A stretch of DNA of 64,000 bases, taken from assembly GCF_024713945.1 (NCBI RefSeq), contig NC_134679.1, positions 4,035,001 to 4,099,000 of the forward strand, given 5' to 3'. This document shows positions 11,497 through 64,000 of this stretch, one piece after another (within the stretch, counting starts at the first letter, position 1; each line of letters begins with the position of its first letter). Both the position numbers and the translations under genes were made by a program. This DNA comes from Dermatophagoides farinae. Its lineage: Eukaryota; Arthropoda; Arachnida; Sarcoptiformes; Pyroglyphidae. The notes beneath the pieces were generated by a model, which was given only the letters and a program-made list of their open reading frames with translations, did not search any database and was not told where the DNA came from.

Positions 11497-11740
11497 TGTT
11501 ACAATAAAAAGTTATAATCTTTATTTCTGAAAAAATGAACAATAAATTTAGTTTATAATAGTTAAAAGAAAATTTGGTAACATACAAAGTGTTGGGTTAA
11601 CATTAATAATTTTCACTTGGATCAAAAATCACAAAATTACAAGAAAAGCATAAACACACACAAAATGATTTTCACATCAAAAAGTTCGATAAATGTGCTT
11701 TCGACTATTCAGCCATATTCACAAACAATGTACCGCAACA
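11497..11740 (-). repeat. LTR of the BEL element (3' LTR in element sense)
   Basis: 244 bp, matching the copy at 16451-16694 base for base as far as I can compare by eye. The element's reading frame ends a few codons inside this LTR. Confidence 0.95.
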
Positions 11741-14700
11741 ATTCTCCCGCCGAGAATGTGATATCCAAACCAAACGATTCGTTGGTCTCCACAATTCTGT
11801 TCCATTAATTCGAATTTTTACAGTACGACATATGCCATCAGAACCATTCTTGACTTCCATTACTTGTCCAATAGGCCAATTAGAACGTTTAGTCAGATAT
11901 TCAGGCAACATTAACCAATCACCAATTTGCACATCAGTCGATTTGTTGGTTGACATTCGAGCCAATTTCTTCAGGTATTGGGACATCCATAATTTGGCAA
12001 CTTCTTTGACAAATTTTGATCTCTCATTTTTCATTTCCCATACGTTGTCCATATTATTTTCTTGATTTAGATTCATGGTACGACCCATCCATAGTTCAAA
12101 GGCAGAGAAAAAACGGCCATCATTTTGTATTATCGGTCGTTGGTTAATAACAAATTCCACGTAATTAAAATTTCGTTGCAAAGAAAAAAGTGAACGGGCC
12201 TTTTTTGGCAACATTTTCAAGCATTCCTTCACCAATCTAATCATTCGTTCGGCTGCACCATTCATCCAAGGCGCCAATGGTGTTGACGTTTTCCAATTAA
12301 CAGTATTTGTTTGACCAGATAGGGCCAATTTATTCAATTTTTCACGAACAGCCATAAAATTGGTTGCGTTATCCGACCACACTTCCGTCGGATATCCAAC
12401 TTGATTCCACACGGTTCTCAAAGTATCATATAACGAATTTTCGGACAAATTTTCGAGAACACTAACTTTAACCGCTTTTGTTGTTCGACACATAATAACG
12501 ATTCCATAGCATTTTTTACCATTTGCAATAGTTAACGGTCCAAACGCATCCATCATTATACATTCAAATGGCTTCATGAACCGTTTCTGAATTTCATGTA
12601 ATGGTCCCAGTGGTTGTTTAATTGCATTACCTCGGATCATTCGGCATAAGACACAATCATTAATTATTTTTCTCATATGACGATTAGCATTTGCAATTCG
12701 AACTTCATTCAAAACCATTGCTAATGACATTTCACATCCACGATGAAGCGATTTTTTATGTGCCAATTTCAACATTTCGTTAGCCAGAATTGTATTTTTT
12801 GGAATCCATATAGGGCGATTTTCCAAATCTCTTGACCAATAATGCAACAGTCCATTCTTATCGACCAAATTATCTGCGCGTTTCAATTCACTACGTTGGT
12901 AAATCAGGTATAAGGTATGTAGAGCGCTAAAATGAGGTTTTCGGTCGGTAGCACTTTCCATCCAATTCAAACATCGTTGTATCCATTTTGTCATTTTTGA
13001 AATCACACCGCATTTGTCCATCCAATTCCGCACCGTTTGATCAGGAATCCATGTTTCTCGAATGGTACAAATCAATTTCGTTACAACAGGTTCACTGCTA
13101 TCAGCGATCATTTTATCAATATCGATTTCATATGGTTTGACGGTAATATAACGTTCAGCGTTACATCCTCTCGAAAACAAATCAGCAGGATTAAGTTTAC
13201 CACTTATGTGCCGAAACTTAGCATGAATTTCAAACCCAGTCATTAGAATCGAGAGCAATCGACGTGCAATCGAAATCTGAAATTCATTCGGTGACGATTT
13301 TAATCGATCAATGTTTATTTGCGAATCGGTAAAAATTTCAACTTCGCCAACATATTTCAAATAATCAACAATACGCGAGGTGGCTTTAACGCCTTCATAT
13401 AATGCCAATAATTCCAAATCGACGATTGTTCGACCACGTGGAGATATTTTAGACTTTCCAAAAATCAGATCTTTTCCCAAATATATGGCGTAACCATAAC
13501 CATCAAAACTTGCATCCACGAAACATGACACTTGCCTTAGATCTTCAACATAACGGACAAATTTAATTTCATTCAATTCATTTAATCCAATCGTAAGATC
13601 GTTGATCTTGGATACAATTTCTTCGTCTAAATCATCATCCCAATCCTTATCCTGGATTGTAGCAAATTCTTTACGAAATAATAATTTCACAGGTTCACAA
13701 AATCCTAAAGGATCAAATAGTTGACCAATAAATCGTAATAATTTTCGTTTCGTATCAATTTTATCAGGGATTTTCCAATTAATATTCAAATAATCATCGA
13801 TACAATTCCAAACCAAACCAAGCAATTTACAGCTTGACGATTCGATTCCAAAACAATCACGAATAAATGTAGAATTCGAGACCATTTTATGTAGAACAAA
13901 ACCAGACGATTCAAACGATGATTTTGCTTCATTCATTACATTCAACAACAAAGATTCTGAATGAGATACGGCGAGCAAATCGTCCATATACATAGAATTT
14001 TCCAAAATACTTCGTGAATTCAACGACATGTTATTAATAATGGTTGACACAACTTGCGTCAATATTGCTGGCGCACTAATAACACCAAATGGCAATACAA
14101 TCATTTGCATTATCATCAATTGATTACTTTGATTCTTCCATAAAAATCGTAAATATTGGCGATCAGATTCATCGATAACGATTTGTAAAAACGCCTTTTG
14201 TAAATCACCAATACAAAGAAACGGAGCCATTCTAATTCTCACAAGATGAGGCAATGTATTCAAATTCAATGATTCACCTTTCCAAAGCAAATCGTTCAAT
14301 GAATTCCAACCGAATGACGCATTCAATACAATTCGAAACTTGGTAGTCGCGGCATCAGGTCGTTCAACTTCATGATGTGGGATAAAATACCCATCTGTTT
14401 CATTAATAATCTCGGCATGATTATTTTCAACAAATTTCATTAATTCAGATTCATATTGTTCCAAAAGACCTTTTTTGCTCAAACGAGATTGCAGACGATC
14501 AAGATGTTCAACCGCTTTATTAAAATTATTCGGTGGTCTTTTGCTTGAGAAAAACGGTAGCTTAACTTTAAATCTACCATTATCCAATTTTTCTATTTGT
14601 AAATTCATTTTTCCATCATCAACTTCTTCAGGACAATCATTTTCATTCCAATTTACAACACGTTTTTCATTTCGTTGTTCAATAACGTTGATCACTTTCA

Positions 14701-16303
14701 TTGATTCAAGATCTATATCGCCAAACACGGTATGCCAAACACGGTGACCATCACGAAATAATTTGGCCATGTAATCTCGACCAACAATAACATTGTTTAA
14801 TGGGACACCATCAGAAACATAGGCCTCTATGTTTGATTTGCCATCAGGATGCGTTATAACTATATCAGCAACCTGTTCGACGATTCGGGACATGGATTTT
14901 TCGAATCCACAAATCTTTATCGGTGTGACTTTACGCCGGCATTCTAAAGGAGCCAAATTGCTGGCAACAACTGATACGTCAGCGCCGGAATCTATTAGTA
15001 TGTCACATTCATTTCTGCCGATACGGCCACGGAATTTACCAATATTAAATCCAGTTGAACCACGCACGACGTTCATGTCCGCGGTAGCCACAGTTTTTAC
15101 TTCAGTTTCAGCAAAATTTATACCATGCAATGATGTCGGATGATTGCTATTACATGATGTACACTTTATTACGTCCTTTCGACGGCAATCCATTGATTTG
15201 TGTCCAGGCCATAGACATATATGACACAAACCTTTATCAAATACAATTTTCTTTTTATCGGAGCTGGACAATTCACTTTTACAAACGGTAGCCATATGTC
15301 CAGGCTTATCACACAAAAAACATTTCTTCATTGGGTTAGCCATCACAGATCGAACAGATGATACTCTGGGCTTTGGTTCAACATTTTTCACAGATTTTGC
15401 CGACAACTTAAGCTCAGCATTATGTTGTGCCCACGTTAGGGCATGGCGATGAGCCTTTTTAACCCGTTCCACAAGATCGTCCAACGATTGACATTCAGCA
15501 ATGATTTTTTCTGATTCTTTTTTCCAAAATTTATTGGCAATTTTCCAAACTATTTGGGACGTGTTATCGACATAACGAGGACCCAAGTTAAACATGGCAT
15601 TCGCAAATTCTTCAATTTGCGTTTCAATCTTTCCAAGACCATCGGTATCGTATTTGTCCTTCACATTGGTCATTTTCAGTATCATCGACTGGATGTACAT
15701 ATTTATGAGCTCAGGATCTTCGAATTCTTTCGACAAGGCTTTCCAGCTCTTTTTTATATCCATTTTTTGGGTTTCGCATCGATCCCATATCGAAGATGCT
15801 TTACCTCTTACAATACCGGAAATGATGATTCTTTTTGAACTTTCAGAAATATTTTTCCGTTCAATAATCAGCGATTCAACACGACTTTTGAACGCTGGCC
15901 ATTCAGCAACATTATCCTTAAACGATTTGATTGAATTTACAATTTTGTAAATCGGTATATCATTTTTCGCATCAGGATTGGATCCACTAGACGAAACACG
16001 ATCATCATCATCGAGATGACTACCATGAGTACTTCTATCATCATTATCAGCATCAGATTCATTTAGATCCACGTCATCATCACCATCATCATTATTCAAT
16101 AATTCATTCAGATTAACATTATTGATCATTGCCTTCAATATATCGTCATATTTTTTCCATAATTCCAATTCATCTTCATCAAGTCCAGCCGTACGATTTT
16201 CGAATTCTTCGTTCAGTTCGGACACCAGTTTTCGATCAAACTTTTTCGATTTGAAAGATTTCGTGATTTTTGCTTTAAAAACTCGATCGGACAATTTATC
16301 CAT
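11705..16303 (-). CDS. BEL/Pao gag-pol polyprotein
   Basis: One frame of 1532 codons. The Gag-like region is at about residues 1-320. Zinc knuckles of CX2CX4HX4C type lie near 329-341 and 360-373, followed by a further Cys/His cluster. The retroviral-type aspartic protease motif DSGADVSVV is near 438-446. Reverse transcriptase follows, with PDAATTKFRIV leading in and the YMDD catalytic box in the middle of the protein. Next come the Pao-type connection region, an RNase H region with FVDASFDGYG, a zinc-binding integrase N-part and an integrase core with MMDAFGPL. The C-terminal WLMLPE and WRPTNRLV words match the BEL/Pao integrase tail. All are families known from this superfamily. Confidence 0.95.
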   Translation of the reverse strand: MDKLSDRVFKAKITKSFKSKKFDRKLVSELNEEFENRTAGLDEDELELWKKYDDILKAMINNVNLNELLNNDDGDDDVDLNESDADNDDRSTHGSHLDDDDRVSSSGSNPDAKNDIPIYKIVNSIKSFKDNVAEWPAFKSRVESLIIERKNISESSKRIIISGIVRGKASSIWDRCETQKMDIKKSWKALSKEFEDPELINMYIQSMILKMTNVKDKYDTDGLGKIETQIEEFANAMFNLGPRYVDNTSQIVWKIANKFWKKESEKIIAECQSLDDLVERVKKAHRHALTWAQHNAELKLSAKSVKNVEPKPRVSSVRSVMANPMKKCFLCDKPGHMATVCKSELSSSDKKKIVFDKGLCHICLWPGHKSMDCRRKDVIKCTSCNSNHPTSLHGINFAETEVKTVATADMNVVRGSTGFNIGKFRGRIGRNECDILIDSGADVSVVASNLAPLECRRKVTPIKICGFEKSMSRIVEQVADIVITHPDGKSNIEAYVSDGVPLNNVIVGRDYMAKLFRDGHRVWHTVFGDIDLESMKVINVIEQRNEKRVVNWNENDCPEEVDDGKMNLQIEKLDNGRFKVKLPFFSSKRPPNNFNKAVEHLDRLQSRLSKKGLLEQYESELMKFVENNHAEIINETDGYFIPHHEVERPDAATTKFRIVLNASFGWNSLNDLLWKGESLNLNTLPHLVRIRMAPFLCIGDLQKAFLQIVIDESDRQYLRFLWKNQSNQLMIMQMIVLPFGVISAPAILTQVVSTIINNMSLNSRSILENSMYMDDLLAVSHSESLLLNVMNEAKSSFESSGFVLHKMVSNSTFIRDCFGIESSSCKLLGLVWNCIDDYLNINWKIPDKIDTKRKLLRFIGQLFDPLGFCEPVKLLFRKEFATIQDKDWDDDLDEEIVSKINDLTIGLNELNEIKFVRYVEDLRQVSCFVDASFDGYGYAIYLGKDLIFGKSKISPRGRTIVDLELLALYEGVKATSRIVDYLKYVGEVEIFTDSQINIDRLKSSPNEFQISIARRLLSILMTGFEIHAKFRHISGKLNPADLFSRGCNAERYITVKPYEIDIDKMIADSSEPVVTKLICTIRETWIPDQTVRNWMDKCGVISKMTKWIQRCLNWMESATDRKPHFSALHTLYLIYQRSELKRADNLVDKNGLLHYWSRDLENRPIWIPKNTILANEMLKLAHKKSLHRGCEMSLAMVLNEVRIANANRHMRKIINDCVLCRMIRGNAIKQPLGPLHEIQKRFMKPFECIMMDAFGPLTIANGKKCYGIVIMCRTTKAVKVSVLENLSENSLYDTLRTVWNQVGYPTEVWSDNATNFMAVREKLNKLALSGQTNTVNWKTSTPLAPWMNGAAERMIRLVKECLKMLPKKARSLFSLQRNFNYVEFVINQRPIIQNDGRFFSAFELWMGRTMNLNQENNMDNVWEMKNERSKFVKEVAKLWMSQYLKKLARMSTNKSTDVQIGDWLMLPEYLTKRSNWPIGQVMEVKNGSDGICRTVKIRINGTELWRPTNRLVWISHSRRENCCGTLFVNMAE

Positions 16304-16450
16304 GATTCAATAATCCAAGATTCAAATTCAAACGATCAATTCAATAAATTCAAAATTCAATCCAAAAATCAATTCGATTCAATAAGATATTCAATAAATT
16401 CAATTCAATTCATACAAATCCAGGCCAAATCACTTTAAATAAAAGAAACT

Positions 16451-29410: not shown

Positions 29411-30026
29411 ACGTAATCGAACATTTTTAATCGACTCTAAACCGTCTTGAACCATTGAATAATAGTATTTGTTTCGGGTACCATTTTGTTCATTATGATT
29501 TTGTGTTAGATCATTTTAAGATGATCTTTGTCTGACTAAGACTTCTTTTTTCCCGATGACTATGGACAGAAAAAACAAGTTTTAAGAGAGTCAACAACGA
29601 CTCCATCTCGTTTATCCATGCGTTTACTGTATGAAATATGGTACTAAAATCATGGTTCATAAAATCTTTGAAGCAATCAGAATTGACATTTTTTAATGAA
29701 TTTTCAATTATTGATTCTTTTTTTTTATTTTTCTTGCAAAACTGATTGTCTTTTCACTATCATTGATGTGGGAAATCCCAACAGATGGTCTAAATATAGT
29801 TATTTAGTAGTAGTTATTGTTAGAACTAAAATAAACTCTCAAAGTACATGATAATGATTTTTCCAATGAATTGAAATCATGTGCATTCATTTTGTTGATC
29901 ATTGAAATTCTAGCTAAATTGTAAACGAAAACAACATATTTTTTCATCATAGAAAATTGATTCGAATGTATGACAGGAACAATTTTCATGTTTATGTTCA
30001 ACTGAATAATTATTGAAAATTTAAAA

Positions 30027-31444
30027 ATGGAAACATCAAAATTTTCTCAATTATTCCATTATTGGTCTCGATTTTCAGTATGGTCAAATTTTTCCAAACA
30101 AATCAAACATCAAAATCTCAAAAATTTTGAAAATCTTCAATCACAAACTATAAGACGAAAATGTTGGCATTTATGGATTTCATTCATTCCATCCATACTA
30201 GTGACTGGATGTTTTGTAATTTTTCTTCTACATAATGATTATTTAAATTATTATCCATTCTGTTTGATGGTGGATTTTTTACCCACCGATGTTCACAAGA
30301 ATTTCAGTCAGGCATTAATAATTTTGGGTACCATTCATATGATGATCATCATTTTAACATTTAATTATCATCAAAAAGATTATGAATTTTTAACAATATT
30401 TTTGATTCAAGATCAAAACAAACAATTTGAGAATGGTGTTGACCATGCTGATAATCGTAATTTCATGCATTTCGAAAAATTCGGTCTAAATCATTGGCAA
30501 TATCAAAAATTCAAAAGATTTCGATCATTATGTTATCAAGCAGTCAGTACGATGATACAATCATTAACTTTTTTTGTTGTCATTATGATTATCTATGACA
30601 TTTTTGATAAAAATTTATTTGAACGTAGTATATTTTGGGTAATTTTCTGGTTTTTCACTGTTATTCTCTGGTTGGCATACGTTTATCCATGTAAGTTGAT
30701 TACAATTGTTTGATTTTATTTTGATTATTACAATATTTATCATTGTTTTAGCTGTTTTTGCAACACCAATTCTTGTCATCATTATTGTTCATTATATTCT
30801 TCTAAAATATTATCAAATAGTTCAAGATTTAGAGCAAACAATCAACACATTAAGGAATAATATTCGAGGATTATTTAAACTTCAATACTATGTCAGATTA
30901 TTAAGAATTAATAGACAATATTCATTATTAAATGCTGAAATTCGTCGTTATAATCAACAGATGCGATCCGTTATCAGTGTATTAATTTCTGGTTATTGTA
31001 TATTCATTTCATATAGTATCTATGTTTTACTTTTTACACAATTACCATTAGTATTTATTATTCCGTTTATTTTATGCACGATGTTCATTACACTTTATTT
31101 AACTACATTAATCTGGTGGTGTTCAAAACTATCAAATATGAATAAACAGATTGGTCGTATGAACAATCGTTTTCTTTCAACAAATTTTATGACTGGAAAA
31201 TATTCCGCTAAATTGATCAAGGTTTGTTTCGTTTTCACAATATACTTTCGAATAATTCTTTTTTTTTTATTAGTTGGAAATGATAAGCCAGAATTTAATT
31301 GGTAAAAATTCAGGATTTAATTTATTGAATGATTCTTCGATAACTTGGAGCACATATGGTTGGGTAAGAATCGTGGATAAATAATATGATTTTATTTTTT
31401 TTTTTTTTTTGATTAATCAGTTTTTTTTGTTGATGATCGAATAA
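30027..31444 (+). CDS. Polytopic membrane protein, possibly chemoreceptor-like
   Basis: Four exons in phase: 30027-30690, 30752-31221, 31274-31363, 31421-31444, giving 415 residues. Hydrophobic spans are near residues 52-70, 92-114, 170-192, 198-222, 224-243 and two in the 310-370 range, about seven in all, with long polar cytoplasmic-type stretches between spans 2-3 and 5-6. Length, number of spans, small C-terminal exons and absence of a signal peptide resemble arthropod gustatory-receptor-type proteins. I see no diagnostic TYhhhhhQF motif at the C-terminus, which here ends GWFFLLMIE. Family assignment is therefore inference. The last exon is only 24 bases and rests on a good acceptor (poly-T then AATCAG). 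The stop lies 77 bases from the converging lipase gene. Confidence 0.6.
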
Positions 31445-33396: not shown

Positions 33397-35172
33397 CTAT
33401 TGAAATGATTCTCGCCTGCATGTCAAATTCCGATTATCGTCATTGTTGGTCATTAAATATTTTGCCCATACTTTATGACATTGATCTTGTTTCCAATTTG
33501 TTTCGAATTTCCAAACACCGTCTATGAATTGTGAATAAGGCATGTGCAATGAATTGGTTTCATTCCATGTCCATGGTAACCATTTTTTAATATTTGGACG
33601 ACCATGATGAACAAAATGGCCAATAGTTTTCATGAATTTTTTCGAGATTTTTTGATCATTTTCATCAAATTCATTGGATGCCATGAACGGAATGCCAAAC
33701 ATCATAAGAACATCAGTTCCATGACAGGCACCCATCCATTCCAAACATGGTGCAAAACGATTTGGACGAGATTTTTGTGACCAGACATATTGATATAATT
33801 GAGCAGGATTTTGTCGTTTTTCGATTAGTTTTTCGGCAAACAATGTCATCGGACAGGAAACATAGAAATCTCCAATAGATTGGCCGATTGTTTTGAAATT
33901 CCTTAGCACATTGGAATCAGATAGATAACATTTGGCAATATCATCTCCGTTCACTTTGTTATGATTACAACCACGAGGTGGCACTAGCTTTGTAGTTAAT
34001 TGTACCATTTGTTCAATAGCTTCATTCCATGATAATTGTTGATCAGAAATAAATTGCTGAAATAGTTTATCATTCATCATCGGTAAAACTTGACTTCCTT
34101 CATCATCAGTCGAGCCAATCATGATTACCATTTTTGATGTATCAATCTGATCGATTGCTTCGGATAGTGTATCGAATGGAAAAAGGTCATCTGTTTGGTC
34201 CATGACAATTTCTGGTCCAGTGGATACTGGACCAAATGGATTGATTAGTTGTAAAATTTTATCAATTGAAGCTTGCTTCAAGCATTTCAAAGTTTTCTCT
34301 GTCCATTCATGACCACAAGAAATCGTCGAAGCCATTTGAGCCCACATTTGAGCTACATTCATATTACAAGCAGAACGAGCCGATATCAATTGTGTATATA
34401 CTGATCCTGACATCATGATAGCTTGTTGAAACAATCTTCGACTTTTAGGCGACATAAGATGAAGTCCAACTGAAGTAGCACCTGAATCGAATCCTGCAAT
34501 GGTAACGTGTTTTGAATCACCTTGAAAATATTCAATATGTTCTTGTATCCATTCCAGGGCTAATAATTGATCCCAAATACCAGCATTGGTTTGTGTCTTT
34601 AATGTTTGATTCTGATGACCAATATACATGAAACCGAATGCATCTAATCGATAATTAACAGTAACAACAACAATATCTTCACGTGCTGCAAGTTGCTGCC
34701 CTTGATACAATAAACGAGCTGTTGTATCAGATATGAATGATCCACCATGGAACCAAACAAGCACTGGTTTTAATGTAAATGATGATTCGTTCGTGACATT
34801 ACGAACCCAAACATTTAATTGAAGACAATTTTCGCTCATACGTGCCATTTGTTTTTGTTCTGCTGTCATTTCCGATTTAAACATTTCAATAAAACCCGAT
34901 TGCTGTGGACAAAATCTTGCTGGTCTTGTTGCATCGATTTTCACTTTTGTTGTATCCAATTTCCATGCTGGTGTTGGTCGTTGAAATCGTTTTGCATGTC
35001 CATATGTGATACCAGTGAATTGATCAACCAAAACAGTGTTTGAACCAATTTGAACAGGATTTTGTTTGCCTACAATAATGTTCGTTGGTGTTCGAATCTC
35101 CGGATATACGTTTGATTCCGCCAAACATGATGAACAGGTAACTAGAATGATTAAAAAAATCCTCGAAAACAT
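33397..35172 (-). CDS. Carboxylesterase-like protein with Asp in place of the nucleophile Ser
   Basis: Single-exon frame of 591 residues, normal length for the type-B carboxylesterase/cholinesterase family. The signal peptide is MFSRIFLIILVTCSSCLAES. Family landmarks are SENCLQLNVWV (112-123), VWFHGGSF (oxyanion hole, 139-146), NYRLDAFGF and HIEYFQGDSKHVTIAG. At the elbow, where GESAG is expected, the protein reads GFDSG, so residue 229 (codon 34486-34488) is Asp. The acidic member (DDEGS, Glu358) and His484 (ACHGTD) are kept. No membrane anchor is visible at the C-terminus, so it should be secreted. Non-catalytic cholinesterase-like proteins act as adhesion or binding molecules in other animals; that role here is inference. 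A neighbouring Ser230 is out of register for the family. Confidence 0.92.
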   Translation of the reverse strand: MFSRIFLIILVTCSSCLAESNVYPEIRTPTNIIVGKQNPVQIGSNTVLVDQFTGITYGHAKRFQRPTPAWKLDTTKVKIDATRPARFCPQQSGFIEMFKSEMTAEQKQMARMSENCLQLNVWVRNVTNESSFTLKPVLVWFHGGSFISDTTARLLYQGQQLAAREDIVVVTVNYRLDAFGFMYIGHQNQTLKTQTNAGIWDQLLALEWIQEHIEYFQGDSKHVTIAGFDSGATSVGLHLMSPKSRRLFQQAIMMSGSVYTQLISARSACNMNVAQMWAQMASTISCGHEWTEKTLKCLKQASIDKILQLINPFGPVSTGPEIVMDQTDDLFPFDTLSEAIDQIDTSKMVIMIGSTDDEGSQVLPMMNDKLFQQFISDQQLSWNEAIEQMVQLTTKLVPPRGCNHNKVNGDDIAKCYLSDSNVLRNFKTIGQSIGDFYVSCPMTLFAEKLIEKRQNPAQLYQYVWSQKSRPNRFAPCLEWMGACHGTDVLMMFGIPFMASNEFDENDQKISKKFMKTIGHFVHHGRPNIKKWLPWTWNETNSLHMPYSQFIDGVWKFETNWKQDQCHKVWAKYLMTNNDDNRNLTCRRESFQ

Positions 35173-44015: not shown

Positions 44016-46096
44016 GCAAACATCATTGGCCAGCCAATTTATATATGTGTATAAGTTCGTTTATCATAACCCTTAAATTAATGTAGAATAGTTGTCAATT
44101 AACAAAATGAAAAAAACCAGATTTTCTTAGTATGGAGATAATAATTAAAGTTTAAATTTTTACTCCAGAATAAGACTAAAAAAAATTCCATACGAGAATT
44201 TTATCATTATTTTTTTTTTACTTTTGTTTTTAAACTGGTTTATTCGCCTTCTTTGTAAATTCACACTATAAATTTAGACTCAATGCGTTAAATGATGGCA
44301 TTGAACTGTAAGAGTTAATAAATCGAATCTCATTATTTTAATATTGTTCGATTGTGGATAAATGATATTCAAGAAAGAAAGTAAAAAACAAAAAAAAATG
44401 TTCAAATTTATCTTTGTGACATCTATCCATATCATATTTGTTTTTATACCAGCTTAAAAATATCTATATTGGTTATCATGTTTTTTCATTAAACTTGAAT
44501 GATGAACGAATATTGCAAATTTCTTCCACATCGATGTTTGAAAACGTTCACATGGAAAAAATCAGCATAGATTCTTTCATCAATCATTCAGTTAGGGTTC
44601 TTTTTTATTGTTTGTCTTGAACACACAAGTGTGAACTTTTTCTCTGAATCTTTATCAAAAAATAAACAAATATATTAATTTCATTCAGATTCCAACAACC
44701 ATGAAAGATTATGATTATGAACATGCATCAACTACAAACTCCATTATCATCATCTTATATGTGAATCCAACTTTTGAAAATTTCATCATTTTTTTTATCA
44801 TTCATCGATATTTAGCAGGATTGATTTGATTGAGGAATTTCTTGAATGGTCCATGATTTGTTAAGAAGATTGTATTATACTTGTTGGTTGATAAAATAGA
44901 TGGTAAACCATTAGGGTAAAATAACATGAAAGTTTCCTTAACGTCATTCAGGTAAGAAAATAAACTATTAAAAATAATTGTTATTGTTAAATTGTTTCAT
45001 TACAATGTTGTTATTAAAAAAAAGAAAGTTTGTGTTTGATAATGATGTTTTGGATGTAATTAGTCAAAATGGGAAAAGTATAATTTTAATGATGATGATG
45101 ATGATGAAAACAAAAAAACACTGAAAAAATAAATTCGAATGAATGCAGTCTTCAGGCAAGATTTCATCATCAAATGCAAACTCACAGATGGACACAAAAT
45201 GAAAATCACGTGTATTACACGTATTACAATAATCAATTCGAAAAATATCGAATTTTTTCTATCGAAACCATTATTTCTTTATACAGATGAAATTCGGCGG
45301 ATTTTTTTTCCAACATCAAAATAGCGTGAAATCTGACTTTATCATATCTTTATCATAAAATTTTTAATGCTTCACACGGTGTTTGATAATTCAGAATATA
45401 TTCAATAGTTTCTTCTCCAGAAGTAGATATGATCAATTTTAAAATTCATGATTTTACTACTATCATTCCAATCAATTGGAATCGTCTTATCTAAACATTC
45501 ATCAGGTCATAATAACATTCATGAAATCATTATTGAATACAAATGAATGGTAAAACATTCAATTTATGATATTCAAAACATCAGAACTATGATTATAAAA
45601 ACAAAATAAAACTAAAAAACTTTTATTCAAATACATATTACATATACATAAATCAATTATGAAAATAATCGACATAAACATTTAGATAGATTGCTTATAT
45701 ATTGATGTGTTTTTGTTATTTTTTTTCTAACAAGAAAGTAAAAAAAAAAAACATTATAAAAAATGTCAAAAAAATTTTTTTTTGTGACATCTATCCATAA
45801 TATTATGTGTTTGTGTATATAACCAGCTTAATATAATATATCTATATGGTTATTATGTTTTTTCCTTAAACTTGAATGCTGAACAAATGTTGGACACATT
45901 TATTCACATCGATGTTTATAAACGATTACATGAAAAATCAGCATACACTAACTATCATAGATTCTTGCATCAATCATTCAGTGAGGGTTCTTTTTTATTG
46001 CTTGTTCTTAAACACGCAAGTGTGAAGTTTTTTTCTGAACCTTTACCACAAAATAATAAATAAACAGATATTAATTTCATTCAGATTCAAACAACC
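44016..46096. other. Intergenic stretch with a decayed gene fragment
   Basis: 2.1 kb between the Tudor gene and the ABCG gene. It includes the 5'-end duplicate described separately and the ABCG upstream region. A good acceptor-like TTTCATTCAG lies 12 bases before the ABCG start codon, so a 5' UTR exon may be further upstream. No other gene seen. Confidence 0.55.
44375..44785 (+). pseudogene. Decayed duplicate of the ABCG gene 5' end
   Basis: About 410 bases matching 45733-46160, the upstream region and first codons of the ABCG gene. Shared words include GTGACATCTATCCATA, TCACATCGATGTTTG/TA and CATCAATCATTCAGT, then ATTTCATTCAGATTC.AACAACCATGAA at the start codon and AATCC.ACTTT.GAA further in. 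The copy continues for about 25 codons with several changes and then loses similarity before any ATP-binding motif. It is the stub of an old local duplication, not a gene. Confidence 0.8.
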
Positions 46097-49000
46097 ATGA
46101 AGGAAAAACATCAACGACAAACTCCAATATCATCATCTTATACGAATCCGACTTTCGAATCAATATCGATCAATAATAACGAAAAACCGAAATTACCGGC
46201 AATAAATGATGTTTCGATTGTATGGAAAAATCTTCGCTATGAAATTGCAAATAATGTGTTGGGTTTCGATTGTTGTGGTGATCGACAAATTATTATTAAT
46301 CGTTTGAATGGCCATTTACATTTTAATAGCTTGAATGGGTTTCTTGGCCCAAGTGGTGCTGGCAAAACTACATTATTGAATTGTCTGAATGGTGCATTAT
46401 ATTCAGGTTTAAGTGAAGATTCAGAAATTTATTTTGGAGAATCATCAAGTCGCTCAATTCGTTTCATTCAACAACACGTACATGAAACAATTATTGGTCG
46501 TATGACAGTTCGCCAAGTATTGTACTATGCATTTTGTTTCAAAAATCCTGGACAAAAAAATCGATTCTGTCAACATACACAAGCTGTCTTGAAAGAATTA
46601 CTTCTAGATGAAACTATATTGGATAATACATTTGAAAATTGTTCCGGTGGTGAACAACGTCGTATCGCCATTGCACAAGAATTAATGTCACTTAATAAAC
46701 CAACATTTTTATTTATTGATGAACCGACTACTGGTTTGGATAGTCATGCAGCATTGTTGGTTATGCAATGTCTTCGACGATTAATAATCAAAAGTCGAAT
46801 GACAATTTTATGTTCGATTCATGCACCTAGTTCGGAAATAATGGCCTTATTTGACAAAATATATATTCTGGCTAAAGGTGGTGTATGCATTTATTCCGAT
46901 TCACCAGAAAATCTTCGCCCAAAGCTCAAACAAACAATCGTTGATCCTGAGATTGTACAAATGCTGGAAGATTTGGAACAGCCACCTGTTGAAGTTTACC
47001 TAAAAATTGCTTGTCAAGGTATGTTCACTGATCATTTATACATTTTTTTTACCAAAATAAAATCTAAATCTAGGTATTAATGATAAGAATGTACGACTGT
47101 TGGCAAATAAAACTTTGCTTGAAGAACAAGAGCAAATGGGTAATGAGAAATTTTCATTTACAACGTTACAATTTATGCAGAAAGGTGTCAAAAATGATCA
47201 TCAAATATTTTCCCTCACTGATTTTTATCTGCAATTATGTCGAATGTTTAATATTGTATTCATTGCCGAATATCGAACGTTAATTTTTCAGGCAGCATTC
47301 TATGCGTTTATTTTTCTAATTACGGCTTCATTGTTTGATCAACGAATGGTTCAGGCAGAAACTTGTTATACATTGAATATGGATGAAGAATCAATGCATA
47401 ATTTTACTTGTCGTGATCGTTTAAATGCCCAGTTTTTTAGTGATCAATATAAGATTTATCAAGCGTATATGATTGCAATTATTGGCATGGGCATTATATG
47501 CATATCGAGCATTTCATTCATACCAATTTTAAAAGTTTTCAATAATGAACATCGTAATCGTAAGTTTTCTTATGAATCCTAAACATGATTCTGATAAAAA
47601 TTTGTCCACAGAATGGTATAGTATGGGCGTTTTCTATTGGTCATTCGTCATTGTTCGTCTTGTTGAAATAACCATAATGGCTGTTTATATGACTGCATCA
47701 ATCTATTTCTTTGTCGATCATAGCTATGTGGATGAAAATCGTATCAATTGGTTTCGATTTGGACATTTTGTATATTTTATCTGGATATATGCCATATATC
47801 TACAAAGTAGTGGACATATTCTCAGCTTATTATCATTGGGATATTTAGAAGTGGCTATTCTTGGTGGTCTTACGGTTATTAACGCTATGACATTCTGTAC
47901 CGGTTATATGTTCTTTTTTGAACACGGTAACTCGGTGCTAGAAATTATGTCAGAAATTATACCAATCAAACCGATAACAAATGGATTGATCTATGCCTTT
48001 TATGGAATAGATCGATGCGATCAAGAAACAGAAACATCATTTGTTTTAGAAGATTTCGGTACCAATCCATTGACCGTATATAATGAATTACAAAGAACGC
48101 TCATCATTATTGCCTATATTCGTATTGTAACATTTTTGGTAATGATTATTCGTTTCAGCTTGCGAATTCATCGAAAAACATTCATCCAATCTAATCATGA
48201 TGCCGATTTGTTGCCTATATATTATTCGGAGATTTTTGATTCACCTAAAAAACTTGAAATTGATATGGATAGAATATCTCGTACTAAAAATGATGATGAA
48301 ATTGAATTTGAAAATTTTTCACGTGAAAAACTTATGATTGCATGGCGATCGGTTACATTATTTGCATCGAAATCCATTCATGAAATTCGATCAGTTCAGG
48401 ATATTCACGAATCGAAACTAATTCTTCGTGATTTAAACGGACAATTCCGATTTGGTACATTGAATGCGTTAATGGGACCATCTGGTGCTGGGAAAACGTC
48501 ACTGTTAAAAGTGTTGAATGGTCGATCAAAGACTCGATTGAATGTTGAAAGTGAATTTTATCTAAGCAAATTCACACCAACAAAAACCTGTTATATCACA
48601 CAAGATGTTTCTGGTCATCTGATGCCCGGAATGACAGCCAAACAATTATTGATTTTTGCTTCACGACTGAAAAATGTTTCCGAAGGAAAACACGTGGATC
48701 ATGAAAGTATTTCATTGAATATCCTAAATGAATTAGATCTTTATGAAGCAAGAGATACGATGGTCGATAGATGTTCCGGTGGTCAACGAAAACGTCTAGC
48801 TTTAGGCATAGAATTAACATCTTTACGAATGCCAAATCTGATCTGTATTGATGAACCTACTAGTGGATTGGATTCCAATTCATCTGTAGTCGTCACGGCT
48901 TGTTTACGTAAATTGGCACGTTTACATAATCTTTGCATTATTACCTCCATTCATCAACCGAATACTGATGTCTTAATGATGTTTGATGATGTTTATGTTC

Positions 49001-50330
49001 TAGCCAAAGGTGGTGTTTGTGTCTATTCCGGACATCCGAATGAAATACGGCAACATTTATCACAACATTCAGCCAGTAATGATGTTCATAAAGATTTGTT
49101 TCCCATTGAAGAATTAATAAAATATTCTTGTCTCGACCACAATAATTTTCAGGTAAAAAATCTAGTACAAGCAACTAAGACAAAAATTCTTGACAAAAAT
49201 TCTTACAACCTGAATGAAGAAACACAATTGGTATTGGATGGCATACCAAATAATCGTGTACGATTCTCAATACATTCGATTTGGATATTAATCATTCGTT
49301 ATTGTTATTTTATTCGTGGATTCCAATGGATACATCTATTAATCTTTCCATTATGTTTATTGATTGATGGTTTAATTATGGGCCTCATATTTGATCCTAA
49401 GATTGCTTTGCCTTCAGGTTGTATCAATCTTGAAGATGATTTTAATAATACTTGTGCTCGTACTGAACAACAACTAACAGATGAATCGGATTTACGAACA
49501 AATTTCGCCTATACTGTTACTCATTTGAACATGTTTCTCAATTTGATTATGCTTCAGAGTGCTTTAATGTTCTCCAAAGATTTCGTTTATTTTCTTAATG
49601 AACATCGTAATGGTAAGACAATATCACGATATTTCATGACTATTTTTTGATTTTATTTCATTTTCGATATCTAGGATGGTATAGCACTGGTGCATTTTAT
49701 GTGATGAAAATTTCCATAGAAATATTGCCCTTGTTTTTGATAGCTTTTCTATTTGCTTATGAAATTAATATCTATGAAGTCGTTCGTCCACGTATCTACT
49801 TTTGGATTGTCGCCTTATTCATATTGGGTGCAATGGCTTTACAAGGTGCTGGATATTTATTATCAATTTTAGCTACCGGTGATTTCACTACACTTATAAC
49901 TTATTTTGTTGGTTTAAGTACTTTTGCCGTAATGCTTAGCAATTCAACATCACCTGTACATCGTTTGCATTATATTTACCAGTTCCTATCTTGTTTATCA
50001 CCATTTCGTTTCGTATTTGAAGCTTTAATTTTGTTAGAATATGGATTTGGTCGATGTGGTCGAAAACAAATACAAGTCATATTGTATAAATTACATCTAG
50101 CCCATGAAGAAGATGATTTATTTTTTTCTATACTAATGCTGGTTGTCAATATCATCGTCTATCGTTTACTAGCATTTTTAGTATTATGGATCAAATCTAA
50201 TCCTTATCAAAATCGACGAACTCGTGCTGATCGTATATTATATCATCATGGGACATTAGCACCATCAAATGCTACAATACCAGGATTGTCTTGTCATAAT
50301 GAATTTACTATACATCAAATATCCATATGA
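46097..50330 (+). CDS. Full-size ABCG transporter (two NBDs, two TMDs)
   Basis: Four exons: 46097-47018, 47074-47559, 47612-49612, 49675-50330; every junction is phase 1, giving 1354 residues. NBD1: Walker A GPSGAGKTT (84-92), signature CSGGEQRR (182-189), Walker B FLFIDEPTTGLD. TMD1 spans about 380-655. NBD2: GPSGAGKTS (758-766), CSGGQRKR (857-864), Walker B LICIDEPTSGLD (about 879-890). TMD2 is in the last ~330 residues. The order NBD-TMD is the reverse layout of the ABCG/white family. TMD1 end and NBD2 lie in one uninterrupted exon, so the halves are fused rather than neighbouring genes. Both halves share an intron after EHRN in the first membrane domain loop. Likely role is export of lipids, pigments or xenobiotics across a membrane; substrate unknown. 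Both ATP sites look complete. Confidence 0.93.
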
Positions 50331-50738: not shown

Positions 50739-53700
50739 TCAACAACATTTTTTGGTATAATTTGATTTCGGTGTTACATTTATGCCACCATTAACTTTAC
50801 AATTATTCTTTTGATTTTGTTTCGCAATAATCATTTTGATTGCAATAATTATTGTATTATCGACATCGAAACCAGTTTTGCAACTAGTCTCTATAAATAT
50901 ACAATTCGGTCCAATTTCATTAGCCAAACGTATACCTGATTGTCGAGATATGAAACTTAATTTATCATCTTTATTGTTAATGTAACGAAGATCACATTTG
51001 TTTCCAATCAAAAGCAATGGAATCGGTTCGAAAACAGTATCTTCGATTGATGTAAGCCAGTTTCGTACGTTAAGGAATGTTTGCTCTTTTGTAATGTCAA
51101 ATACCATACAAATAGCATCAACACGACGGTAATAATTTCTGGTAATTGAATGATAACGTTCTTGACCAGCAGTATCCCATAGCTGAAGATCATAAAATTC
51201 ATTATCCACTTTAACTTGTACGGTCTTTGGAATAAATCAATATCATAATGATAATGTCAACATTGAAACAATTAATTATTATTATTTTCACCTGAAAATC
51301 AATACCAATAGTCGGAAATGGATCAGATTTGAATGTCCCGGTACGAATTCGATTTATAAGCGATGTTTTACCCACAGTCGAATCACCAATCATTATTAAT
51401 TTAAGTGTTTGTTTTGATGGCGGTTGCCTTTGGGGCCTTGTTTGAATACGAACTATTTTTAAGTATTTAATTTAGATGGCAAGCAATGGTAAGTAAATAA
51501 AAGAAAAAAACATAAAAATAATTTTCATTATCTTACCAATGCAGTCATTTTCACCGATCGTAATTTTTCTATGACAAAAAATAAAATGCTCATCGACATC
51601 ACAATAACGATCAAGAATCGAATGTTTCACTTTTATCACTATAGAAAAATGTAAGAATCAATATTTGTTGATTGTTATTAATAATAATAATCGTAAATAA
51701 TATTTTTTTTTATTTCTAGATAAACTTGCCATCACTTTTTTCATCATTTGGCTTTCTATTGTTATCCACATCATCATCATTAATATTACGAGCAATGACA
51801 TCATTCCGAATATTTTTATCACAAAGTGAATGACGATCACGACAATGATTACAATTATTTTCACGCTTAAGGCTATTTTTCTTGTCATTATTAAATGATT
51901 TATTGAAACTATAGCTATCATCAACAGTTTTATCGTCATTGAAACAATTGATACAATTGCTATTATAATCAACGTAATGGCTATCATCAAATGGATTATT
52001 ACGTTTTTGTTGTTGTTGTTTATGATGATGATGTTGATGTTGACATAATGAATAACAATGATGATAAACTTGAGTATTCGGCATATTATGAATTAATGAT
52101 TCGTTTATCGATGTCTTCATGGAATGTTTGAAATGAGAATTTTGATGATGGAAGCATTTTTTAATTTTATCCTGATCTTTGTCTTCATCATCAACATCGA
52201 ATGACATTTGTCTTTGGAACGGAATCATTGTGCAACCGTGCTTATGTGGTCTAAGTTTTTCGCTGTTATTTGTTGGTGTAGATTGCAGATTCATATGGGA
52301 ATTGTTTGTCTTCAATTTATCCTGATTTTTACACATATCATGATGATGCCAATTTTGATGACTAAAATTTCGAGAAATCATAAGTCGTTTTTCTTGATTA
52401 TTGATGTTGTTGAAATGTAAAATTTTGGCAATCCTCGAATCTTGATTTGGAATCATATTTCTGGATTCATTAAGTTTAGTTGGCAATGATTGCATTAAAT
52501 CCGAACGAAATGCATCTCGTTGATGGAAACTAAATAATCGGCGACGAATTTTTGCAATATTGATTGGTTCAACGCCAGTAAATAGTCTACCAATGATCGA
52601 TGCATTCGTTTGTCGCCCTAAACTATTGGATCTATTGGTACAATGATTATTAGTTTTATCAACAACACAATCAGCTGATGATGATTTCATCGAAAATATC
52701 ATTTGATTCGAAATAAAATTGTCAACATTATTAAATGATGGCTTCGATAATGATGATTTAGTAGATTGTTGTTGTTCGTTAGCAATCAAATTTAATATGG
52801 ATTCCTCTTTCAATATATCAAATATCTGTTCCTGTAATGAACCATTTGTCTGTTGAAGTTTAGCATTGATATTTCTATTGAATGGGTTTATAGCAAATAT
52901 CAGTGATTAGAATTGCTTAATACATTCATAATAAGTATTTAATTTAACAAACCTCAAACGCACAATCTCTTTATTCAATTTTTGTACATCGTTTCCATAT
53001 CCAATATTAGATTTTATTTGTTTAATTTCATCTTCATTCAATTCATCATCAGACAAACAAGATTTGTCGATACTTTGTCGTATGCTAGCAAGATTAAAGT
53101 TATCTCTATTTGCTTTCTTATTATCATTCATCTCTATTGAATTGTTTGAATTTGAATTCAACATTATTATTTGATTTGGCAATGATTTTATAGTTGATTT
53201 TAATTCAAGAATCTTCAACATAGAATCATTATTGTCATTTTCATCAATTATTGCTTTTTTGTCTTTATCATCATCATCATCATTATTTCTATTATTATTA
53301 TTCGTTGTATCAATGACGAATTTAGTTGAATTTTTGTTTTGATTTATACAATCACCATAATGTATGCGTCGATGATTCTCTGTTCCAGCCTCAGGTTGTA
53401 TAGTTATTTTTTCTAACTCGACTAATGACGATAAGTTTTTTGAATTTAAATTCGTGATTTTGAATTTTTCTTCATTGCATTCATAAATATTACCATCACC
53501 ATGAGCTTCATTAAGATTGATCATCATCATTGTCTGGTATTCATGTCATGGTATGAGTTTCATATATTCATTAATGAATATTGTTTCGATGGAATGGAAC
53601 GATCCAGAAAGTAAATGGAACAAAAAATGATTGAAAAAATGAAAAAGAACGCATCGGAGATTGATGATTGAAAACCAGAAATTGACATTTCAATTTGAGT

Positions 53701-56177: not shown

Positions 56178-56774
56178 AAAAATCCGTTTGAACATCAAAC
56201 ATCATCAAATACTCGTTAAGAATAAATGTGAAATCGATTCAGTAATGGCCTGCTATATAGATTGAACATCATTATCATCATCATCGTTTTTTTCCAATGA
56301 ATCGGTCTTTTCATGTTCTTAGCTAAAAAAAACTTTGCTATTTAATTTTCTTGTCTATCTCAATATTCTGATTGATGTGGTTTCAATCATTACTACACAA
56401 TGTTTCTGTTTTTATCATGTTTTTTATATCAAGTTTCGATGGAAAAAGTTCTTGATTATTCTACATACAACTCTTCATACGATTCTATGAAAAAAAAGAC
56501 AAAGAACGACATATAAAATCAACAAAATAAAAATATAAATAAAAAAACCACGAATTCCATTGATGAATTTGATAACGGAATTTTTTTATATTCATTTCAT
56601 TTTGTATCAAGAGTAAAAGAATAAAAAAAAATTTCAATTCTCATGTGTATTTTGTCATACCATAAAATACCATAAGTCATTCCATTCATTTAACTTGCCA
56701 AAAAAAGACGATGATGAGTGAGACGAATATGACAAAATTCTTGAATAAGTGGGGAAAAAAATCATCTTGGGAAA

Positions 56775-58600
<1,826 letters not shown>

Positions 58601-59364
58601 TCAAATTGAACCAATTATAAAAAACATTGAACAGATAATCTCATGTATAACGAAACTCGATATGTACATCATATTATATTATTATAAATTAATATCAAAA
58701 ACCTAAAGTTGATTATAATCGAAAAAAAAATTTTTATTTTGATTGGATTTGATTTAACACAAAAAAGTATATACTACAGATAATGATCTGAGAAAAAACT
58801 ATGATTATGTTGTCGTTTTTATGTTCAAGTGTTTTTTAGAAAAAAAAATTTAACCAAAAAATGAGTCGAATTTGGCAATGTGTCAAGGATGCAAACCAAA
58901 TTCAAGTATATAATTAATGAATCGATTTAAAAAAAAACATCAATATTGTTTAGATAAGAATCATAAATAACCAGTTAATAATTTCAATTCAATTCAGTTT
59001 CATTGTAATAATGGACATTATTTTTATTAACATCATCAACAACAACAAAATAACAAATAAACATATAATGTTACAAAGAATTTCGTTTCCAGTTACAATT
59101 TTAATTCTAACTAGTAGATTGTCGTGTTATTTCGATTAAGAAAAATGTTCAAATGGTTATGTACAATGAATACAAAGTTTTAATCAAAAATATCTGTATC
59201 GGTATTTATTATTTTTCTTTTCATTCCGACATCGCTTTGATTTCCCTGAGGAAATCTACATACAATAAGATTCTGTATTTATTTGTTATGAAATTCTATA
59301 TTATTTTAACTGTATACAGTCATAGAAAATGATAAAAAAAATGTTTGTCTATGTTTAATGAAAA

Positions 59365-60405: not shown

Positions 60406-61004
60406 TAAAAAAATCCGTTTGAACATCAAACATCATCAAATGCTCGTTAAGAATAGATGTGAAATCGATTCAGTAATGGCCTGCTATATAGATTGATCAT
60501 CATCATCATCATCGTTTTTTTCCAATGAATCGGTCTTTTCATGTTCTTAGCTAAAAAAAACTTTGCTATTTAATTTTCTTGTCTATCTCAATATTCTGAT
60601 TGATGTGGTTTCAATCATTACTACACAATGTATCTGTTTTTATCACGTTTTTTATATCAAGTTTCGATGGAAAAAGTTCTTGATTATTCTACATTCAACT
60701 CTTCATACGATTCTATGAAAAAAAGACAAAGAACGACATATAAAATCAACAAAATAAAAATATAAATAAAAAAACCACGAATTCCATTGATGAATTTGAT
60801 AACGGAATTTTTTTTATATTCATTTCATTTTGTATCAAGAGTAAAAGAATAAAAAAAAAATTTTCAATTCTCATGTGTATTTTGTCATACCATAAAATAC
60901 CATAAGTCATTCCATTCATTTAACTTGCCAAAAAAAGACGATGATGAGTGAGACGAATATGACAAAATTCTTGAATAAGTGGGGAAAAAAATCATCTTGG
61001 GAAA

Positions 61005-62785
<1,781 letters not shown>

Positions 62786-63593
62786 TTAAATATAGATTGA
62801 CAGCAAATAATAAAACGACGTGTTTGAAATCAAATTGAACCAATTATAAAAAACATTGAACAGATAATCTCATGTATAACGAAACTCGATATGTACATCA
62901 TATTATATTATTATAAATTAATATCAAAAACCTAAAGTTGATTATAATCGAAAAAAAAATTTTTATTTTGATTGGATTTGATTTAACACAAAAAAGTATA
63001 TACTACAGATAATGATCTGAGAAAAAACTATGATTATGTTGTCGTTTTTATGTTCAAGTGTTTTTTAGAAAAAAAAATTTAACCAAAAAATGAGTCGAAT
63101 TTGGCAATGTGTCAAGGATGCAAACCAAATTCAAGTATATAATTAATGAATCGATTTAAAAAAAAACATCAATATTGTTTAGATAAGAATCATAAATAAC
63201 CAGTTAATAATTTCAATTCAATTCAGTTTCATTGTAATAATGGACATTATTTTTATTAACATCATCAACAACAACAAAATAACAAATAAACATATAATGT
63301 TACAAAGAATTTCGTTTCCAGTTACAATTTTAATTCTAACTAGTAGATTGTCGTGTTATTTCGATTAAGAAAAATGTTCAAATGGTTATGTACAATGAAT
63401 ACAAAGTTTTAATCAAAAATATCTGTATCGGTATTTATTATTTTTCTTTTCATTCCGACATCGCTTTGATTTCCCTGAGGAAATCTACATACAATAAGAT
63501 TCTGTATTTATTTGTTATGAAATTCTATATTATTTTAACTGTATACAGTCATAGAAAATGATAAAAAAAATGTTTGTCTATGTTTAATGAAAA

Positions 63594-64000
<407 letters not shown>

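Follow-up and report, generated by a model that had tools for sequence, protein, structure and literature searches.

Transporters of the ABCG subfamily usually carry lipids and foreign compounds. Two of them, ABCG5 and ABCG8, are different ABCG halves that function as an obligate pair, and plants and fungi possess many genes per genome for pumps of the pleiotropic drug resistance (PDR) type. In the sections of the literature devoted to this subfamily, only ABCG half transporters are reported for metazoans (PMC3724490), ABCGs are described as half transporters as in most metazoans, with extra full transporters in fungi and plants (PMC4247197), and a plant paper confines full-size ABCGs to plants and fungi (PMC4923091); the corresponding parts of the surveys assign the full-size layout to plants, fungi, and some protists, not to animals. 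Here, we describe a plus-strand gene at positions 46097-50330 of a 64,000-nucleotide stretch of the house dust mite Dermatophagoides farinae (the window, corresponding to C3:4035001-4099000 in genome G000, which comprises 62.4 Mb on 22 contigs). According to the gene model, it encodes two nucleotide-binding domains (NBDs) and two transmembrane domains (TMDs) in one protein with the layout NBD1-TMD1-NBD2-TMD2. We consider it highly probable that this is a genuine full-size ABCG gene, one of about 30, which would have originated from duplication of a half gene and in-frame fusion, followed by expansion and by homogenization of the NBDs in recent groups, and whose product would act as an intramolecular two-site exporter.

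The gene comprises four exons with a coding sequence of 4065 bases, specifying 1354 amino acids without internal stop. In each half of the protein, a match to Pfam ABC_tran (PF00005) is followed by a match to ABC2_membrane (PF01061). This is the ABCG-type reverse order, also found in the animal half transporters white and ABCG1. An earlier note on this DNA started from the premise that animal ABCGs are half transporters and that full-size forms belong to plants and fungi, in agreement with the cited sections of PMC3724490, PMC4247197, and PMC4923091. Its claim of two full NBD-TMD halves in one phase-consistent four-exon gene is borne out by the stop-free coding sequence and the Pfam matches in both halves. 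Likewise, its statement that TMD1 and NBD2 share a single open exon of about 2 kb holds true for exon 3, whose 2001 bp are open throughout and cover the second part of TMD1, the linker, NBD2, and the beginning of TMD2. Walker A, Q-loop, signature, Walker B, D-loop, and H-loop motifs were recognized in both NBDs. Hydropathy alone, at the threshold used, indicated five membrane segments in half 1 and four in half 2, compared to six expected per half. A structure prediction from the family alignment A3 was poor, with a mean predicted local distance difference test score of 52.9, and lends no help to the proposed fold; the probable cause is that half 1 had no alignment depth. The family alignments A1, A2, and A4 were not used because exon fragments were misplaced in them between or within halves.

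A genome search with exon 3 (P0001) turned up numerous loci whose match covers the whole exon and stays in a single open frame. When the window protein was aligned, allowing for splicing, to 36 loci, 28 of them (L009-L036) matched across both halves without a stop codon, at 40-53% identity. With L044, a thirtieth, degenerate member whose catalytic motifs are broken in both NBDs, the genome holds at least about 30 full-size ABCG loci, several of them in tandem, and this number is a lower bound, the scored candidates being 67 out of 145. With the window gene counted, 25 of 29 models have intron 2 (residue 470) and 28 of 29 have intron 3 (residue 1137), while residues 471-1136 are free of introns in 27 of these 29. 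In L017, introns 1 and 2 are both absent, and a single 1186-codon frame opening with ATG extends from NBD1 through TMD1 and NBD2 to the start of TMD2, its last few codons falling in intron 3. An assembly join error or chimera in the 47.6-48.5 kb region, a danger raised in the earlier note, is exceedingly unlikely, because the junction recurs in 28 further loci of this architecture, located on C3 and on C4, C6, C7, C8, and C9 and diverged from the window gene to the extent given above, and because L017 reads across it in its single ATG frame.

Some family members depart from the common form. The models of L032, L033, and L036 are less certain, since unusual extra introns were needed, and L033 and L036 lack 27 and 33 residues, respectively. 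L044 (G000:C3:812500-821500) adjoins L025; it is full-size, without in-frame stop, and has kept both family introns. In L018 (G000:C6:4505100-4512000), most of residues 215-566, i.e., the end of NBD1 and much of TMD1, is gone, which could reflect a pseudogene, a deletion, or an assembly problem.

The joint between the halves (query residues 655-735) measures 80-106 residues in the 29 fetched models and is devoid of stop codons in all 30 models, the window gene included; a random stretch of 45 codons at this base composition would be open with a probability of about 0.035. These properties bear on the alternative that two neighboring half-transporter genes are only seemingly fused and that their halves are made separately and dimerize in trans. 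Internal starts are conceivable in part of the family, considering the in-frame ATG codons at residues 688 and 711 of the window linker and the presence of at least one methionine at residues 650-735 in 20 of the 30 models, among them the window gene. However, half 1 has no stop codon of its own in any of the 30 models, and the L017 ATG frame crosses both NBDs without an intron. Moreover, the remaining 10 models (L010, L011, L012, L014, L019, L020, L022, L026, L028, and L044) have no methionine at residues 650-735, between TMD1 and NBD2, and therefore no ATG start of a separate NBD2-TMD2 chain there. Each gene model contains two NBDs and two TMDs rather than the one NBD and one TMD of a half transporter, and we regard separate production of the halves as quite unlikely.

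A genuine full-size protein raises the question of its ATP sites. All six motifs are intact in both NBDs in 25 of the 28 complete full-size models (the window gene and 27 loci, not counting L018 and L044). Three models deviate: L024 and L025, in which the second signature reads CSNG and CSDG, respectively, with L025 also lacking the glutamine of the first Q-loop, and L032, in which the first glycine of the second Walker A motif is altered. Across the complete models, the two NBDs differ consistently, NBD1 having IH followed by a residue other than Q and NBD2 having IHQ or VHQ. Since the N- and C-terminal NBDs differ in this way while their motifs stay intact, the pump appears to be asymmetric, yet both ATP sites look usable. 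This distinguishes the mite family from PDR pumps, whose first ATP site is described as degenerate in the relevant section of PMC7756269, and from ABCG5/ABCG8, whose nucleotide-binding site 1 is called degenerate in the same section. ABCG5/ABCG8 and the mite pump have in common the pairing of unlike halves, but the former consists of two chains encoded by two genes and has one degenerate site.

With respect to the origin of the two halves, introns 2 and 3 provide a first indication. They interrupt either half at the homologous site, after EHRN and before WYS, and hence both halves seem to go back to a single gene that already carried this intron. When 74 NBDs were placed in one tree, the 30 N-terminal (N) halves form one clade (99/98) and the 30 C-terminal (C) halves another (100/99), and both together with the half gene L043 constitute one clade (100/99), which groups with the mite's other half ABCGs (98/93); the fungal PDR halves lie elsewhere. 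Long branches were flagged in this tree, and its bootstrap had not settled. The union of N and C halves was also recovered (100/99) in a 37-row NBD tree from which L043 and L044 were left out, and the two are sisters (98/94) in a 34-row TMD tree containing no PDR sequence. As the N and C halves are sisters, the split between them is separate from that of the PDR halves. In approximately unbiased (AU) tests, topologies forcing the N halves together with PDR-N (p 0.018) or the C halves together with PDR-C (p 0.0026) were rejected.

In profile searches, the white-type NCBIfam profile TIGR00955 was best for both halves (152 bits for N and 191 bits for C), compared to 117 bits per half for the PDR profile TIGR00956 when the halves were searched apart. 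Both halves are far below the curated cut-off of 736 bits for TIGR00955, which places the window protein within ABCG but outside the eye-pigment-precursor subfamily proper, and neither reached the 1959 bits required for TIGR00956. Exon by exon, no genome match exceeded the TIGR00956 cut-off among the 7 of 145 candidates scored. PDR_CDR, PDR_assoc, and ABC_trans_N are Pfam domains associated with PDR proteins; at E <= 0.001, the Pfam families reported for the two halves of the window protein included no PDR-associated domain. In searches of the PDB, ABCG1 was narrowly ahead for the N half (110.6 bits, versus 106.3 for CDR1). For the C half, CDR1/Pdr5 chains were slightly ahead by whole-chain score (116.6, 114.8, and 114.0 bits, versus 113.6 for ABCG1), with two stretches counted per CDR1/Pdr5 chain, CDR1 at 116.6 bits included, and one for ABCG1, which thus is the top single-stretch match. 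The earlier note had looked to searches of the separate halves to tell animal from PDR affinity; the NCBIfam profiles do so in favor of the former, whereas the PDB scores are nearly equal.

These data allow descent from PDR-type full-size transporters, either as genes acquired horizontally from fungi or plants or as an ancient eukaryotic full-size gene that was kept, to be weighed. The domain order is identical, and the chains are similar in kind, with 1354 residues in the mite protein and 1501-1511 in the PDB chains of Pdr5 and CDR1; having many genes per genome is a further trait shared with the PDR families of plants and fungi. Several points count against the main reading, in which the family arose from mite half ABCGs: the NBDs of PDR proteins nearly equal ABCG1 in PDB score, a topology uniting all mite full-size halves with the PDR halves in one group was not rejected (p 0.19), the reference set comprised human ABCG1 and ABCG2, AtABCG16, Pdr5, and a CDR1, with no other arthropod ABCG, and two half-ABCG loci of this genome were absent from the trees. 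In addition, the position of L043 differs between trees; it lies beside the N halves in the NBD tree (98/82), on a very long branch, and just outside N+C in the TMD tree (90/92). On the other side stand the sister relationship of the halves, with an N/C split distinct from that of PDR, the rejection of N+PDR-N and C+PDR-C, the lack of a PDR-specific Pfam domain among those reported for the window halves, and the intact motifs in both NBDs. We therefore rate PDR descent as unlikely. The non-PDR origin advanced in the earlier note is thus upheld with regard to half-by-half descent from PDR-N and PDR-C, but not against a single group of all mite and PDR halves.

Our contig searches did not point to transfer from bacteria. 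Bacterial or archaeal origin was considered and discarded, as a search with A3 returned only generic ABC ATPase domains at 27-36% identity (best 80 of 542 matches). The same holds for a viral origin: A3 gave 10 weak matches in viral contigs, and P0001 alone gave none there.

A fusion of animal-type half ABCGs, proposed in the earlier note as lineage-specific and as fixing the pairing of two halves, is supported by the N and C sister clades in the NBD and TMD trees and by the proximity of the NBDs to those of the mite half ABCGs; it may be lineage-specific. The placement of the halves that the note had associated with a local fusion was recovered, but the event cannot be assigned to this locus; the window gene is one of about 30, and therefore the fusion is older than the locus itself. 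Several independent fusions, locus by locus, would be conceivable in a family with tandem arrays and with a relic 5' copy near the window gene, both testifying to frequent local duplication. Nevertheless, all N halves belong to one clade and all C halves to another, and the intron pair and the linker are common to the family, which renders repeated fusion highly improbable. Most simply, a half gene with this intron would have been duplicated and fused in frame once, independently of PDR, and the fused gene would then have expanded. L043 (G000:C5:5255500-5263500), a half-size ABCG gene, shares the EHRN intron, but its NBD has decayed, with changes in the signature, Walker B, and H-loop. This gene may be related to the pre-fusion half, or it may have arisen by fission.

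Compared to animal half ABCGs, among which ABCG1 was the top PDB match for the mite N half, the mite protein thus has two halves per chain, distinct N and C types, and about 30 loci. Compared to PDR transporters, it shares the arrangement of the chain, but its halves are not orthologous to PDR-N and PDR-C. From the sequences, the mite family is best classified as ABCG, with a PDR-like layout; neither the ancestry of its halves nor the features of its ATP sites make it PDR. Among the matches listed in the open-access literature, with subscription papers and database annotations outside that scope, there was no report of an animal full-size ABCG. Lineage-specific growth of ABCG is likewise known from Tetranychus urticae (23 genes) and Daphnia pulex (23-24), but the passages concerned describe these proteins as half transporters (PMC3724490, PMC2680897). 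The arachnid ABC-G family is portrayed as small, with a median of 3.5 genes and T. urticae as an outlier with 23 (PMC8290562); its main text does not name Dermatophagoides and is neutral on a mite full-size family. For the sheep scab mite, a table in PMC12364353 that compares mites resistant and susceptible to macrocyclic lactones gives positive fold changes for two genes bearing the annotation "ABC transporter G family member 20".

Divergence among the mite copies is unevenly distributed along the gene. Many pairs of close paralogs have diverged less at synonymous sites in their NBD parts than in their TMD parts. L009 and L010, for instance, differ in residues 76-225 by a synonymous divergence (dS) of 0.00-0.04, whereas their TMD values mostly exceed 1. 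At fourfold-degenerate sites, the contrast between NBD and TMD was significant at p<0.01 in 11 of the 15 pairs of a tandem array on C3 (L009-L014) and in two of the three pairs of a trio on C7 (L019, L021, and L022), whose loci are 0.2-1.5 Mb apart by coordinates. None of 78 distant control pairs showed the contrast at this level, with median fourfold differences of 0.59 in NBDs and 0.57 in TMDs. Synonymous constraint as the cause of low NBD dS is disfavored by these distant pairs, in which there is no NBD deficit. Because the controls argue against a general synonymous constraint on NBDs, NBD-centered gene conversion is the likely explanation in the C3 and C7 groups, and it would have acted also between loci far apart.

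Other pairs do not conform to NBD-centered conversion and count against it. Three C3 pairs, those among L010, L011, and L014, show the reverse pattern with less diverged TMDs. In a clade of C9 and C7 loci, the contrast was found in 7 of 28 pairs, six of them with the uncertain L032, and in 1 of 21 when L032 was excluded; we did not count this clade as support for conversion, because six of the seven pairs involve that uncertain model. By dS, the NBD of this clade was lower in 26 of 28 pairs in half 1 and in all 28 in half 2. The ratio of nonsynonymous to synonymous divergence (dN/dS) was below 1 in NBD1, TMD1, NBD2, and TMD2 in all 16 pairs examined and usually higher in TMDs than in NBDs, with exceptions among the pairs, reaching up to 0.83 in TMD1. 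In the linker, dN/dS exceeded 1 in 2 of the 16 pairs, a point against the main reading.

Combining these observations, we propose the following scenario. The sequences support a course of events in which the ancestor was a half-size ABCG gene interrupted after EHRN; it was duplicated, and the copies were joined in frame inside an exon. The resulting NBD1-TMD1-linker-NBD2-TMD2 gene then expanded to about 30 loci, several in tandem, and some groups of recent copies show homogenized NBD-coding stretches beside diverging TMD parts. The single chain presumably folds as an intramolecular pseudo-heterodimer, in which, judging from the ABC family, the two NBDs would close on two ATP molecules to be hydrolyzed at two intact sites, and TMD1 and TMD2 would form the export path for lipid-like or foreign compounds, the cargo being a guess. 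Fixed pairing of N and C types follows from this architecture, we infer; one chain would guarantee a 1:1 ratio and block mispairing among some 30 related paralogs. Gene conversion would hold the motor sequence in common, while the substrate-facing TMDs would be free to diversify.

We lean, by somewhat more than an even chance, towards the broader view that astigmatid mites evolved a full-size ABCG independently of PDR, the first to be described in animals, when two copies of a single half gene with an intron were fused, a step that would have fixed the pairing and left both ATP sites intact, and that they thereby gained a repertoire of about 30 pumps with a motor kept uniform by conversion and with freely evolving TMDs, L043 perhaps representing a pre-fusion relative. 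If this is true, an animal family of separate origin with the PDR layout would amount to a natural replicate of the PDR experiment. It would allow one to ask whether fusion entails one dead ATP site, which here it mostly does not, why chains fuse, and how the pace of evolution comes to differ between motor and substrate domains. About 30 candidate efflux pumps in a dust mite could play a part in tolerance to acaricides, and wherever an analysis presumes a single NBD per ABCG gene, such loci may be split or misinterpreted.

The features of the window gene are compiled in the table, including a 5' relic that presumably is what remains of a lost tandem copy of this gene.

Features of the full-size ABCG gene and its 5' relic in the window
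Feature	Position in window	Strand	Basis or remark
Exon 1: start ATG and NBD1	46097..47018	+	Gene model
NBD1 core, residues 64-275 (GPSGAGKTT, CSGGEQRR, FLFIDEP, TGLDS, CSIHAPS)	46286..46921	+	Motifs, Pfam
Intron 1, 55 bp, GT-AG, phase 1	47019..47073	+	Residue 308; same place in 10/28 loci L009-L036
Exon 2: NBD1-TMD1 connector and first part of TMD1	47074..47559	+	Gene model
TMD1, about residues 360-655, split by intron 2	47229..48168	+	PF01061 match in half 1; hydropathy
Intron 2, 52 bp, GT-AG, phase 1, after EHRN of half 1	47560..47611	+	Residue 470; also in 24/28 loci L009-L036
Exon 3, 2001 bp, open: remainder of TMD1, linker, NBD2, first part of TMD2	47612..49612	+	Gene model
Linker from TMD1 to NBD2, residues 656-705, no stop	48169..48318	+	Open in 30/30 models
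NBD2 core, residues 735-950 (GPSGAGKTS, CSGGQRKR, LICIDEP, SGLDS, TSIHQPN)	48406..49053	+	Motifs, Pfam
TMD2, about residues 1030-1330, split by intron 3	49291..50255	+	PF01061 match in half 2; hydropathy
Intron 3, 62 bp, GT-AG, phase 1, after EHRN of half 2 (homologous to intron 2)	49613..49674	+	Residue 1137
Exon 4: remainder of TMD2 and stop codon	49675..50330	+	Gene model
Relic duplicate of the 5' part of this gene (DNA upstream of it plus its first codons)	44370..44778	+	77% identical to 45731-46159

Apart from the ABCG gene, the window contains a Rab-like small GTPase gene (recognized by eye) at 50739-51471 on the minus strand, convergent with the ABCG gene and about 400 bp past its stop. 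Upstream lie a 1533-codon open reading frame at 11705-16306 (minus strand) that resembles a retrotransposon polyprotein, which we take to be of the Bel/Pao type, two overlapping frames at 30006-31305 that are rich in hydrophobic segments and by eye resemble an arthropod gustatory-type receptor, and a carboxylesterase/cholinesterase-like gene at 33400-35160 (minus strand), the best PDB matches of which are acetylcholinesterases (3e-49). Downstream, two alpha-amylase-like copies at 56600-58800 and 60828-63029 share 99.86% identity across 2.2 kb; another copy, more divergent, lies between them, and there is a further, partial match at 63635-63998. The near-identical copies may stem from a very recent duplication, from conversion, or from an assembly duplicate; presumably, these amylase genes resemble dust-mite group 4 allergens. 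Elsewhere in the genome, Pfam PF11642, which covers the Blo t 5 family of allergens typical of astigmatid mites, gave three matches over its curated cut-off (184.5, 114.9, and 27 bits), and the two stronger ones represent two genes at G000:C4:4170433-4171937 in divergent orientation, about 0.8 kb apart.

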